From: Thermococcus chitonophagus
GTDB lineage: Archaea > Methanobacteriota_B > Thermococci > Thermococcales > Thermococcaceae
Direction of reading: 5' to 3'
Assembly: GCF_002214605.1 (NCBI RefSeq)
Contig: NZ_CP015193.1
Span: forward strand, 62,001-126,000
DNA: 64,000 bases
Made by a program: the position numbers and the translations under genes. Shown one piece after another: positions 43,952-48,826 of the stretch; the stretch's first letter is position 1; the number at the start of each line of letters is the position of its first letter. The notes beneath the pieces are model-generated. The model ran no database searches. It saw nothing but the letters and a program-made list of their open reading frames with translations, and had not been told where the DNA came from.

Positions 43952-45553
43952 ATGTTGCGCCTGAGGGTGGTGATCCTGATAGTAATGATGGCCATCGCCA
44001 CGCTCCCTGCGCAGGCATTACTACCAGAAGTTGAAGTGAATGTGAACCCAAACCTAGAGCTTTTCGCAGTCCTCTACATTCTGGCCTTTAACGGCAGTGA
44101 TCCTTTCATTTATGCTCCCCAGGAATACATTCAGGATGTTCTGACGTACTTCGCTCCCTATAAAGACCATGAAGCCGTTGAATTCATTCGCAGAGTCGCC
44201 GATAAATCGTTACCAGCTAACGTTCGAGAGTATTTAATAATGAAGTTCAGCGACAGGCTTGTCTTCCTTAATTATCTCCCGAATGAGACGGAGCTAGGAG
44301 AGCTTGAGAAGCTCGCGGACTTCGCAAGAAAGAGCAACTTCATGGCGTTCTACAACGCCCACAAGAATGAATACGTGAAGATGAGCTCTAAACTGGAGCG
44401 GATTCTGGAGTGTGCATCAAACGAATACGAGAAGCTGTTCGGGCGTACATACAGCTTCAGGGCAGAGGTTTCGTATTCTCTCAAGATACATCCCCACAGG
44501 CTCATTCGCAATCAGACCATATACTACATCGGGGAGGCATACTACCACAGCAACTTCTCCTTCTATGAGAGAGCCTTGGCAATGACACACCTCTTTGCAT
44601 GGCCATTCGTTGAAGATTTAGTCAATAAAAACCATGAAAACTTTGAGAACCTGAGTTACTATCTAGGCGCCGTTAGAAATAAGCTCCCCCTTCCCTCATA
44701 CACGGCCTCTTCATACTTCAAACAGGTGTTCGCCGAAGCCGTTTCCGAGCACGTTGCCCTAAAGTGTGGCATACCTGATGACTACATAGAAATGAGGAGG
44801 CTATCCTTCTCATACATGATGTTCCCGCTGGAAAACATATTCGAGGGGATTCAGGAGCTTGGAAATGGAACGCTTTACCTGCATATTCAAAAGATAACGG
44901 AAGACATGAAAAGATGGGCAACTCCGAAAAACATTAGCAGGCTCTATGAACGATCCGTTCCAGTGGTTGGATTCCATTTTGTATCCAGATCCCTGTATAC
45001 GGGAACTATAATAATTGTCTACGGAACCCAGAACCCTGACAAAAGCGGTACTGAAGCCGATAAGGAGACTGCCTATGCTGTGAAGAGGCGCTTTGAAAGG
45101 GAATTAAAGATGATGTACGGATACTCACCCAGGATTGAGGTTAAGGCCGACAAAGATCTTACCGAGGATGACCTCAAGCAGAACCTAATCCTGATAGGCG
45201 GGCCGGTTGCAAACAAAATTACGGCCCAGCTAAATGATAACCTACCGATAAAATTCACGTTCAATGGTTCGTGGACAATCGTCAGGAACTCCACAGCCGT
45301 CGGAACTATTAAGTCCTTCCGAATAGCTTCAGGCAACATAACCAAGGTTTATCCAGGTCTTAATGCACTAAAGGATGCATATGGGTTCATGGAGATTTTA
45401 AAGAACCCCTGGAACAGGAACAACTACATTCTCGTAATTGCGGGCGTCGATAGGTACGGAACAAAGAACGTCAGTTACTTCCCATGGAGGCAGAGCTATG
45501 CCATAGAGAGTGATAGCTATATTGAGGTCGGCTTTTATTTTATGGCTGAGTAA
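43952..45553 (+). CDS. Secreted DUF4932 protein with S-layer-like C-terminal part
   Basis: 533 aa. The signal peptide (VVILIVMMAIATLPAQA) is followed by NPNLELFAVLYILAFNGSDPF, the start of the DUF4932 domain (about residues 30-320). A C-terminal part (about 340-533) has NLILIGGPVANKITAQLN and NNYILVIAGVDRYGTKN, resembling modules of archaeal S-layer proteins. Several N-x-S/T sequons suggest glycosylation. The function of DUF4932 is unknown. It is followed 50 bp later by a deleted copy of itself. Confidence 0.75.
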   Translation: MLRLRVVILIVMMAIATLPAQALLPEVEVNVNPNLELFAVLYILAFNGSDPFIYAPQEYIQDVLTYFAPYKDHEAVEFIRRVADKSLPANVREYLIMKFSDRLVFLNYLPNETELGELEKLADFARKSNFMAFYNAHKNEYVKMSSKLERILECASNEYEKLFGRTYSFRAEVSYSLKIHPHRLIRNQTIYYIGEAYYHSNFSFYERALAMTHLFAWPFVEDLVNKNHENFENLSYYLGAVRNKLPLPSYTASSYFKQVFAEAVSEHVALKCGIPDDYIEMRRLSFSYMMFPLENIFEGIQELGNGTLYLHIQKITEDMKRWATPKNISRLYERSVPVVGFHFVSRSLYTGTIIIVYGTQNPDKSGTEADKETAYAVKRRFERELKMMYGYSPRIEVKADKDLTEDDLKQNLILIGGPVANKITAQLNDNLPIKFTFNGSWTIVRNSTAVGTIKSFRIASGNITKVYPGLNALKDAYGFMEILKNPWNRNNYILVIAGVDRYGTKNVSYFPWRQSYAIESDSYIEVGFYFMAE

Positions 45554-45603
45554 GTTCTGCTTTTGTTCCTTAACTCATTAAAGCATGAAGCTATTTTCAT
45601 AAC

Positions 45604-46138
45604 ATGAAGGCCCGCGGGACTATCATTATCATGCTTCTCCTACTACTTCTTATGGCTCAGATACCATGGGCGTGTTCAGCGAGTAATGGCACAGTAGTCG
45701 TTGAGACAAACCCAAACCTCGAGCTCTTTGGGGTTTTGTACATTCTCGCGTTCAACGGAAGCGATCCCTTTATAGTTGCTCCCCCCGAATACGTCAAAGA
45801 TGTTCTAACGTACTTTGGCCCGTACAAAAGTCATGAGGCCGTTAAGTTTGTCCAAACTCTAGTAGATAAATCCCTGCCCCAGTATTAATGCAACAGCATT
45901 CCTAATTAGGCAGGACAACCTAGAGCTCATTTCACCAAACTCACAGGCCCCAAAAGATGTTTATGGCGTTATTGAAACAATAAGAAATCCGTGGGATAGA
46001 GAGAAGTATGTGATGGTGGTTGCAGGACTCGATAGGTACGCCACTAGGAAAATGATAGACTATGTATGGGGAGTGAGCTACCTACTTAAAGGAGAGAACC
46101 ATTCGGAAGTCGGATTTTATACAGATAGTGAAAACTAA
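45604..46138 (+). pseudogene. Internally deleted paralogue of the DUF4932 protein
   Basis: The first 94 codons (signal peptide, then NPNLELFGVLYILAFNGSDPF and YVKDVLTYFGPYKSHEAVKF) copy the start of the 533-aa protein and stop at 45888. Immediately after, in another frame, comes the equivalent of its C-terminal 80 residues: PKDVYGVIETIRNPWDREKY, VMVVAGLDRYATRKM, VGFYTD, ending TAA 46138. About 350 codons in the middle are missing, so this is a deleted tandem duplicate. Its end overlaps the convergent gene by 4 bp. Confidence 0.8.
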
Positions 46139-46671: not shown

Positions 46672-46690
46672 CACCCAACCTAAGACCGAA

Positions 46691-46737
46691 AGCTTTATAA
46701 ACTTCAGCATGCATATGTAACATGAAGCTTACATATG
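46691..46737. promoter_or_regulatory. Bidirectional TATA and 26-bp inverted repeat before the DUF2202 gene
   Basis: GCTTTATAAAC (46692-46702) reads as a TATA on both strands. The dyad CATATGTAA-N8-TTACATATG at 46712-46737 has perfect 9-bp arms. It sits where transcription of the DUF2202 gene should start (about 25 bp after the TATA), as expected for a repressor site. Confidence 0.55.
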
Positions 46738-46753
46738 AAGGAGGTCGATGAAC

Positions 46754-47467
46754 ATGAGGAAGAAGTTGGTGGGTATTGGGGTGCTCCTGCTGGCACTCCT
46801 TGGGTTTATAGTTGGTAGCGTAGCAGCGTACAGGGGAGAGCCTGGGCCCTACCCAGGAGCCCCTCAGCTGAACCTCGCCTACACCGGCGAGCTGAGCGAA
46901 GAAGAAAAGGAAGCCCTGCTTTACATGATTGAAGAGGAGAAGCTCGCGAGGGACGTCTACTTAACATTGTACGAGGAGTACAACCTCACGATATTTGAGA
47001 TGATAGCTCAGAGTGAGCAGAGGCACATGGATGCCGTACTAATGCTGATAGAGAAGTACAACCTAACCGCACCCTCAACGCTGGATGAAGTCGGTGTATT
47101 TGAGAACCAAGAGCTCCAAGAACTCTACAACAAGCTCACAAGCATGGCAACAAACGAAGTTGAAGCACTAGAGGTTGGAGCGTTAATAGAGGAGACGGAC
47201 ATTAAGGATTTGGAGGAGTGGCTCACCAAGGTCGACAACCAAGATATAATTCAGGTGTTCGAGAACCTCATGAGGGGCAGCGAGAACCACCTGAGAGCCT
47301 TCGTCAGGAACCTCGAGATTAGAGGAGTGAGCTATGAGCCCCAAGTACTAAATGAAGACCAGGTAAATGAGATCCTTTCAAGTGAAGGACATGGGCACGG
47401 CCATGGGAAGATGTTCGGAATGAAGAGAGGGAGAGGGCCCGGAATGGGTAGGAGCCCCTTCCACTGA
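46754..47467 (+). CDS. Exported ferritin-like DUF2202 protein
   Basis: 237 aa. A signal peptide (LVGIGVLLLALLGFIVGSVAA) precedes a helical DUF2202 domain with metal-ligand-type helices: EALLYMIEEEKLARDVYLTLYEEY (E, E near 45-60) and IAQSEQRHMDAVLMLIEKY (E-x-x-H). It ends with a His/Gly/Met-rich tail GHGHGHGKMFGMKRGRG that could bind metal. The ferritin-like relation is known for the family; activity is unknown. ATG 46754 is 8 nt after GGAGGT; ATG 46748 is too close to it. Confidence 0.82.
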   Translation: MRKKLVGIGVLLLALLGFIVGSVAAYRGEPGPYPGAPQLNLAYTGELSEEEKEALLYMIEEEKLARDVYLTLYEEYNLTIFEMIAQSEQRHMDAVLMLIEKYNLTAPSTLDEVGVFENQELQELYNKLTSMATNEVEALEVGALIEETDIKDLEEWLTKVDNQDIIQVFENLMRGSENHLRAFVRNLEIRGVSYEPQVLNEDQVNEILSSEGHGHGHGKMFGMKRGRGPGMGRSPFH

Positions 47468-47490
47468 TTATATTTTTGAGGTGAGGTATT

Positions 47491-48096
47491 ATGAAAGCTT
47501 CTGCATTAATTAGAGGTATAATCGATCTTTTGCTCACCATAACGTTCATCATAATTGCAATCTCTGGAATAGCCCTTCATTTAGCCCCAAGCGGTAGAAT
47601 TGCAGAATCCATAGGCTGGACTTTCCTAGGATTAAATAAGGACTCATGGGAAACCATACATACCTACCTTGGATTCGTGATGATAGGTTTAGTAGCCCTT
47701 CACCTGCTCATAGGATTCAACAGCATGATAACGATGCTCAGGATGGGCCTGAAAAAGTCAAAGATAAGGGGAATAGCTGGGATATTCCTATCCCTGATTG
47801 TGCTGTCCGCTGGATACATAGCCTTTGCCAACTATACAGCTGAAGAAAGCGAAGATACCTCAGAGTCATACGAGGAAGAAAGCCCGATAACGGGCCAAAT
47901 GCTGAAGTACTATACCGTTCAAGAGCTCGCCGACTACTTCAACGTTTCAGTTGACGCATTAATAGAAAAGCTAAGGGAAAAGGGCATTGAGTGCACACCA
48001 GAAACTAAGCTTGCAGAGATAGAGTACGAATATGGACTCGACAGGGAAGAGCTGAAGGCAATGCTTGAAGAGATTATCAATGAACTTCGTGGATAA
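47491..48096 (+). CDS. DUF4405-type membrane protein with cytoplasmic or external tail
   Basis: 201 aa with three transmembrane helices (about residues 8-30, 54-78, 92-113). Histidines in IALHLAP, ETIHTYLGF and ALHLLIGF lie in the membrane part, as in b-type-cytochrome-like DUF4405 proteins, so haem binding is possible. The soluble C-terminus carries a helix-turn-helix-like segment (TVQELADYFNVSVDALIEKLREKGIECTPETKLAEI). It is 23 bp downstream of the DUF2202 gene, SD GAGGTGAGG, and probably cotranscribed with it. Confidence 0.72.
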   Translation: MKASALIRGIIDLLLTITFIIIAISGIALHLAPSGRIAESIGWTFLGLNKDSWETIHTYLGFVMIGLVALHLLIGFNSMITMLRMGLKKSKIRGIAGIFLSLIVLSAGYIAFANYTAEESEDTSESYEEESPITGQMLKYYTVQELADYFNVSVDALIEKLREKGIECTPETKLAEIEYEYGLDREELKAMLEEIINELRG

Positions 48097-48155
48097 ACCT
48101 TTTCTTCTTTTCCTAAAAAATAATAAGGAGGGCAGTATAGTGGGGAATGATAACC

Positions 48156-48446
48156 ATGGTAAAAGCGGAGGAGCTAGTGACGATCGCGGATGCACTGGCA
48201 AACCCCGTCAGACTTAAAATTCTCAAGCTTCTCTGCGAGAAGGAGTGGTACGTTTATGAGCTAGCCAAGGTTCTCGGCATTTCTAGGCAACTCCTGTACC
48301 TCCACTTAAGGAAGCTTGAAAAAGCGGGATTAGTGGAGAGCGAGCTTAGGTTGGAAGAGGGAGATCCCAGAGCGAAGAAGTATTATAGGGCAAAGAAGTT
48401 TAGGATAGTTATAGATAATGAAACGATAAAAGGATTGGAGGTGTGA
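48156..48446 (+). CDS. ArsR-family winged-helix regulator
   Basis: 96 aa: EELVTIADALANPVRLKILKLLCEKEWYVYELAKVLGISRQLLYLHLRKLEKAGLVESEL is a standard ArsR-type wHTH, followed by RAKKYYRAKKFRIVID as the wing/dimer segment. There are no Cys metal sites. It is third in the DUF2202-DUF4405 cluster and could control it. ATG 48156 is preferred to 48147, where GGGGA is too close. The gap before it is about 60 bp. Confidence 0.85.
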   Translation: MVKAEELVTIADALANPVRLKILKLLCEKEWYVYELAKVLGISRQLLYLHLRKLEKAGLVESELRLEEGDPRAKKYYRAKKFRIVIDNETIKGLEV

Positions 48447-48448
48447 AC

Positions 48449-48649
48449 ATGCCTTGGGGAGGTTCAACTCCAAGTGGTTGGATTTCTGTAGCTATCGAGT
48501 TGATAATTCTCGTCATCTTGATATTCGCAGTTTATCAAGCTAATAAAACGTTAAACGAGCTTAAGCTTGAACTTAATAACCTCAAGAAAATGCTTGAAGA
48601 CGTAAAGAAGGATACAGAGGAAACCAGAAAGAAGCTTGAGGAAGTCTAA
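48449..48649 (+). CDS. Small membrane protein with coiled-coil tail
   Basis: 66 aa: one transmembrane helix (about residues 10-27, WISVAIELIILVILIFAVYQ) and a long charged coiled coil (LNELKLELNNLKKMLEDVKKDTEETRKKLEEV). ATG 48449 follows GGAGGTG by 5 nt, within the end of the regulator gene (stop 48446). It may tether or sense for the upstream regulator, but the role is unknown. Confidence 0.65.
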   Translation: MPWGGSTPSGWISVAIELIILVILIFAVYQANKTLNELKLELNNLKKMLEDVKKDTEETRKKLEEV

Positions 48650-48659
48650 ATTCCCAATG

Positions 48660-48718
48660 ATTACAGTAAAAACTGTAATAAAAATTACAGATCTATTTGC
48701 TACAGGTTGAACTGTAAT
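48660..48718. repeat. Array of YTACAG-N6-CTGTAA inverted repeats
   Basis: ATTACAGTAAAAACTGTAAT (48660-48679) is a perfect 20-bp dyad. CTACAG-GTTGAA-CTGTAA (48700-48717) is a second dyad with the same 6-bp spacer. A TTACAG half-site lies between them (48685-48690). The full sites start 39 bp apart. They lie between convergent genes, so they do not serve an obvious promoter; ATG 48721 opens only a 24-codon frame. Confidence 0.6.
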
Positions 48719-48826
48719 TGATGCTCTTTCATCCAAACACCTACAATTGGCGAGGAATTGAACGCGGAATATCCTTTTTCCCAGGGCTAGAGTAAGTGGA
48801 GGTGAATATAAGAAGAAGCAAAAAGG

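Follow-up and report, generated by a model that had tools for sequence, protein, structure and literature searches.

A conserved promoter dyad, an ArsR-fold regulator and its coupled membrane partner point to a probable cell-surface ferritin-like/cytochrome-like regulon in Thermococcaceae

A 26-bp dyad marks the promoters of genes for a DUF2202 ferritin-like protein, a DUF4405 membrane protein and a related secreted protein in Thermococcaceae. The dyad tracks an ArsR orthologue, and this ArsR is always coupled to a gene for a TM-coiled-coil peptide. The DUF2202, DUF4405, ArsR and TM-coiled-coil genes form a cluster in our window, by which we mean the whole 64,000-nucleotide stretch of Thermococcus chitonophagus DNA that was analyzed, from a 1.96-Mb Thermococcaceae genome. 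We lean toward the interpretation that they belong to a dedicated cell-surface regulon, in which ArsR would repress at the dyad, the TM-coiled-coil peptide would relay an envelope signal, and a DUF2202/DUF4405 redox pair would be the output. This pair is probably extracytoplasmic and concerned with iron or peroxide. This would join two domains without a known function and an orphan ArsR in a single regulon that can be tested and whose operator is exactly defined. The case for co-regulation is now much stronger than the initial annotation of this DNA could know; the metal or redox function and the electron flow that it proposed are still an inference.

The cluster is a short-gap run of four rightward ORFs, as had been described (Table 1), encoding an exported DUF2202 protein, a DUF4405 membrane protein, an ArsR-fold regulator and the TM-coiled-coil peptide. 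The first three families are backed by PF09968, PF14358 and HTH_5, and the peptide has no Pfam family above cut-off. DUF2202 translation probably starts at the ATG at 46754 rather than at 46748, given the spacing to GGAGGT and the MRKK start in relatives. A GTG at 48443 is an alternative start for the TM-coiled-coil peptide, with which the ArsR stop would be overlapped. The cluster is flanked by a divergent NTP transferase gene and a convergent phosphoglycerate mutase gene, both of which vary among relatives; neither was counted into the module. No Rfam match to an RNA element was found in the cluster.

Table 1. Features of the cluster and its promoter (window coordinates)
Feature	Position	Strand	Evidence
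BRE/TATA element CCGAAAG CTTTATAAA of the DUF2202 promoter	46686..46701	+	Sequence; same element in relatives, at equal distance to the dyad
Predicted operator, perfect dyad CATATGTAA-N8-TTACATATG	46712..46737	+	No second exact match in the window; none expected by chance; position kept across Thermococcaceae
Exported DUF2202 ferritin-like protein with His/Gly/Met tail (predicted)	46754..47467	+	PF09968 E 8e-60; MJ0754 E 2e-54; AlphaFold model; Foldseek 3q4r TMt 0.94
DUF4405 cytochrome-b-like membrane protein	47491..48096	+	PF14358 E 2e-16; His 38/38 in alignment; structure model
ArsR-fold winged-helix regulator, 96 aa	48156..48446	+	HTH_5 E 3e-14; orthologue in 60/94 genomes
TM-coiled-coil partner of ArsR, 66 aa	48449..48649	+	Starts -4 to +3 nt after ArsR in 49/49 Thermococcaceae loci

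We surveyed 94 Thermococcaceae genomes for the module. DUF2202 is present in 60 and DUF4405 in 70 of them, and 54 of the 60 genomes with DUF2202 have a DUF4405 match no more than ~4 kb from a DUF2202 gene (within 2 kb in 40). Gene-order maps drawn from 60 neighbourhoods gave DUF2202-DUF4405-(DUF2202)-ArsR-TM-coiled-coil as the commonest order. Extended clusters also hold a secreted ~155-aa protein and a second TM-coiled-coil gene adjoining DUF4405; further additions are an exported protein that matches CWB2 marginally and a related protein of ~101 aa. In Archaeoglobus/Archaeoglobales MAGs, the operator and the genes for the secreted protein, DUF4405, DUF2202, ArsR and TM-coiled-coil stand in a single row, with a long DUF2202 in one case (L189) and a truncated one in another (L190); a third row (L192) is without DUF2202. 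DUF4405 and DUF2202 are divergently adjacent in another family (L173). Scattering of the four genes among relatives is thus not what the co-occurrence check found, and the proposal of one, largely extracytoplasmic module gains from this conserved order. Short intergenic gaps are common in Thermococcaceae genomes and could by themselves place four unrelated genes side by side; we give practically no credence to such a chance neighbourhood, which is already refuted by an order and an operator kept across genera and in Archaeoglobus. In two near relatives (L074, L075), the DUF2202 and DUF4405 genes are broken, with ArsR and TM-coiled-coil intact.

We analyzed the upstream dyad, previously noted for its 9-bp arms and its location at the expected start site. 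The TATA box lies at ~46693-46701, the dyad starts ~10 bp downstream, and it spans the expected transcription start at ~46723-46726. An exact match is found here, and none occurred in 100 shuffles even with up to 3 mismatches. With at most one mismatch, the dyad is present in 60/94 genomes at 1-5 sites each; a reversed-pattern control gave 0 in all. The sites are mostly upstream of DUF2202, DUF4405 or the related secreted protein. Other dyad-bearing genes code for further DUF2202 lipoproteins and for a secreted ~150-aa protein adjoining pyruvate kinase, and there was no oxidative-stress enzyme among the operator-bearing genes inspected, which counts against the proposed output. This genome has two sites, one at the cluster and one ahead of its only other DUF2202 gene. 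In that second gene (G000:C1:660459-661174; L003 3427-4175), the lipoprotein signal and the body are in different frames; the operator, with 1 mismatch, still stands upstream. With its conserved position, its recurrence at related promoters and its link to the ArsR orthologue, the dyad acts like the operator it had been taken for.

The contribution of ArsR was assessed by its co-distribution with the dyad. Orthologues were defined by at least 68% identity; paralogues have at most 47%, a clear gap apart from fragments in one genome. An orthologue is found in 60/94 genomes, a paralogue in few. Among 74 good genomes, 53 have both operator and ArsR, 1 has ArsR only, 2 the operator only and 18 neither (Fisher 5e-14, a value that is only indicative, the genomes being related). 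For operator and DUF2202 the corresponding counts in these related genomes are 53/0/2/19. The operator follows ArsR, as two genomes (G014, G093) keep both with DUF2202 missing; in G030, as a point against the model, ArsR and TM-coiled-coil persist and the operator is missing. Independent support for assigning ArsR to the dyad comes from homologues with 37-49% identity (four Bathyarchaeota and two Thermococcus-type loci), where ATGTAA-N8-TTACAT is found upstream in 6/6 cases, with 0-1 mismatch and 33-46 bp before their own start. These are six of only seven such core sites in 57 kb, for which the exact-core expectation is 0.01. A further Thermococcus ArsR paralogue locus (L242) has an exact core. 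Overall, the core is found in the window and more widely in Thermococcaceae, as well as in Archaeoglobus, Bathyarchaeota and the Thermococcus paralogues; it was not found ahead of Actinobacterial ArsR genes. ArsR likely occupies this 26-bp dyad at the start site, which would block transcription. Another regulator might instead bind there, for example one of the ~42% identical Thermococcus ArsR paralogues, whose own genes are preceded by the same core, with the local ArsR controlling something else, and two genomes (G047, G057) indeed have the operator without an ArsR orthologue. Both are draft assemblies, although part of the good set, and the rarity of the paralogue together with the coincidence of operator and orthologue in 53 good genomes makes this very unlikely.

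We compared the ArsR of the cluster to characterized regulators. It scores 52.8 bits against the metalloregulator profile NF033788, just under the cut-off of 55, and 28 bits against the SdpR profile NF033789, for which 100 are required. SurR (15.5 bits, cut-off 250), Phr (42.8 bits, cut-off 320) and CopR were rejected, as neither profile nor motif agrees. By sequence, Phr of Pyrococcus (2p4w, E 4e-11) is the closest solved winged-helix relative, but the ArsR here is half its length and is without the Phr C-terminal part. No canonical metal-site Cys pair is present in ArsR, and EWYVYEL stands where an ELCVC-type site would be. H53 alone is invariant among Cys and His residues, and a single Cys, replaced by V or S in some, is found in 44/48 orthologues. 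Classical ArsR metal sensing was thus rejected, as there is no site for it, and the metal or redox stress proposed in the initial annotation is at most a candidate signal.

The tight coupling of the TM-coiled-coil gene to ArsR extends to the Thermococcus ArsR paralogues and to Archaeoglobus, Bathyarchaeota, Actinobacteria and a Thermoactinomycetaceae MAG. Charges in the peptide suggest that its N-terminus is outside and its coiled coil intracellular. Small ArsR-family repressors can be sequestered by a co-encoded membrane protein, as in the SdpR/SdpI pair of Bacillus subtilis. By this likeness, which is not one of homology, ArsR is probably kept under control by the membrane-bound TM-coiled-coil peptide. 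The two pairs have in common a small ArsR-family repressor and a co-encoded membrane partner; SdpI, however, is a multi-TM protein, whereas our peptide is a coiled coil with one TM segment, and the score of our ArsR is far from the SdpR threshold. We hold with moderate confidence that the peptide may sense or relay an envelope signal, and, to the same degree, that it may then hold ArsR at the membrane and so free the promoter. Sensing of metals or thiols is common among ArsR-fold proteins, and together with the Cys of most orthologues this would agree with an ArsR that senses a thiol or metal in the cytoplasm, the peptide merely anchoring it or having another job. We consider this unlikely, since the Cys is not strictly kept, an ELCVC-type site is missing and the membrane partner is coupled at all ArsR loci inspected, whether close or at middle distance. 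Control from the membrane would provide a candidate route in archaea from an envelope signal to a one-domain repressor; both the repressor-partner pair and the dyad are met again in archaea that are only distantly related. It is possible, and proposed here only tentatively, that an ArsR-fold repressor with no recognizable ligand site and a coiled coil with one or two TM segments, which is translationally coupled to the repressor and controls it from the membrane, represent a widespread and apparently undescribed class of signalling pair, which would drive the extracellular ferritin/cytochrome module in Thermococcales and Archaeoglobus, with scavenged haem in Thermococcales. Seven loci from Actinobacteria and the Thermoactinomycetaceae MAG (L196, L198, L199, L200, L202, L203, L204) show ArsR genes and then the coupled TM-coiled-coil gene. 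In an unclassified archaeon (L191 1760-2754), the pair lies next to two further proteins, one secreted and rich in Met and His, the other membrane-anchored and rich in Cys (CC..CCC.C).

The ferritin-like protein scores 201.7 bits against PF09968 (cut-off 22). Its AlphaFold model is a four-helix bundle, which Foldseek matches to MJ0754 and more weakly to Dps and bacterioferritin. E62, H93, E149 and H181 are invariant (81/81), and E90 is found in 79/81 sequences. Of the residues expected for a di-metal site (two ExxH motifs plus two Glu), E62/E63/E64, E90xxH93 and E149 are conserved, but helix 4 carries SxxH (S178, H181), and the invariant Ser, taking the place of the carboxylate in the classical di-iron ExxH helix 4, counts against such a site. 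MJ0754 (PDB 3q4n/3q4o/3q4q/3q4r) belongs to the same family, has the same fold and was solved with Zn2+. Unlike MJ0754, our protein is predicted to be exported, carries a His/Gly/Met tail and lies within a probably ArsR-controlled module. The literature searched has no mention of DUF2202 or MJ0754, and no MJ0754 function was found there. On derepression, the metal site of the exported four-helix protein may, with moderate confidence, oxidize, bind or detoxify iron, peroxide or oxygen.

DUF4405 scores 60.8 bits against PF14358 (cut-off 26.7), and its H57 and H71 are invariant in 38/38 aligned sequences. Three TM helices and a C-terminal helical domain are predicted, and by the positive-inside rule H57 would be close to the outer side of the membrane and H71 close to the inner side, with the C-terminal domain lying outside. 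A Foldseek search of the model against the PDB returned nothing significant, with cytochrome b6f chains as the best match (E 3.5). A bacterial DUF4405 protein with conserved in-membrane His has been shown to bind haem b, and the DUF4405-related FezC is tied to iron-storage ferrosomes (PMC11334425). The archaeal protein has the Pfam domain and the in-membrane His in common with these cytochromes, but differs in that it adjoins an exported ferritin-like protein, has an extra helical domain predicted outside and occurs in a host without HemB and HemC. No ApbE flavinylation partner was present among the inspected neighbouring genes. HemB and HemC are found in 0/94 Thermococcaceae genomes, while 11/14 control genomes have each. 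These organisms thus appear unable to make the haem that a cytochrome-like DUF4405 should need, and it would have to be scavenged; either this is so, or the His residues bind something else. This raises the sharp question of why a protein with invariant haem-ligand His stands beside an exported ferritin-like protein in such hosts. In a Thermococcaceae genome without HemB/HemC, a DUF4405-like membrane protein carries a fused cytochrome b5-like domain, in which an HPSG motif is found (L121 3372-3995); this fusion fits haem use by scavenging.

Given the haem b binding of a bacterial DUF4405 and the ferrosome link of FezC (PMC11334425), electron flow from DUF4405 across the membrane to the exported ferritin-like protein is plausible, but it is complicated by the missing HemB and HemC. 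Two DUF4405 subunits may form a homodimer whose H57 and H71 lie close to either side of the membrane, and may pass electrons to DUF2202 via scavenged haem, a step in which we have moderate confidence. Within the same regulon, DUF4405 could alternatively be a haem- or metal-binding sensor or scaffold rather than an electron donor, and the exported DUF2202 proteins surface metal sponges. The missing HemB/HemC, the His/Gly/Met-rich tails, the Zn2+ in MJ0754 and the several DUF2202 paralogues per genome, which have no one-to-one DUF4405 partner, are consistent with this. We find it unlikely, as H57 and H71 are invariant, conserved in-membrane His bind haem in bacterial DUF4405 (PMC11334425), and the cytochrome b5-like fusion makes haem use by scavenging plausible.

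We compared the proposed ArsR regulon to the CopR copper regulon of P. furiosus, a Thermococcales metal-response regulon; the copper response includes ferritin (PMC7830388). CopR is an Lrp-type regulator with a motif, TTNNCAWWWTGNNAA, upstream of BRE (PMC7830388), whereas our dyad lies over the start site. We found no paper on the present regulon in the literature searched, and the main texts of the transcriptome studies on iron in T. kodakarensis and on cadmium in T. gammatolerans make no direct statement on the cluster genes.

The initial annotation had also seen operators in TTACAG dyads at the far end of the cluster. They are indeed present, exact at 48661-48678 and with 1 mismatch at 48700-48717 (0.10 expected). 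Their operator role is unsupported, as a search of 8 other genomes from the genus found them in none, and in the two closest relatives the spacer is shorter and lacks them; we rejected them as species-specific, not conserved and outside the system. They lie in ~110 bp of extra DNA (48650-48760) between TM-coiled-coil and phosphoglycerate mutase, which is absent in the closest relatives. Elsewhere, a 105-aa protein with no known family, encoded close to genes for RNA polymerase subunits, has a one-mismatch operator in six genomes (L154, L157, L159, L160, L163, L164). Upstream of the cluster, at 43952-46134 of the window, an S-layer-like exported protein is followed by a truncated near-copy of its own N-terminus, a partial tandem duplication.
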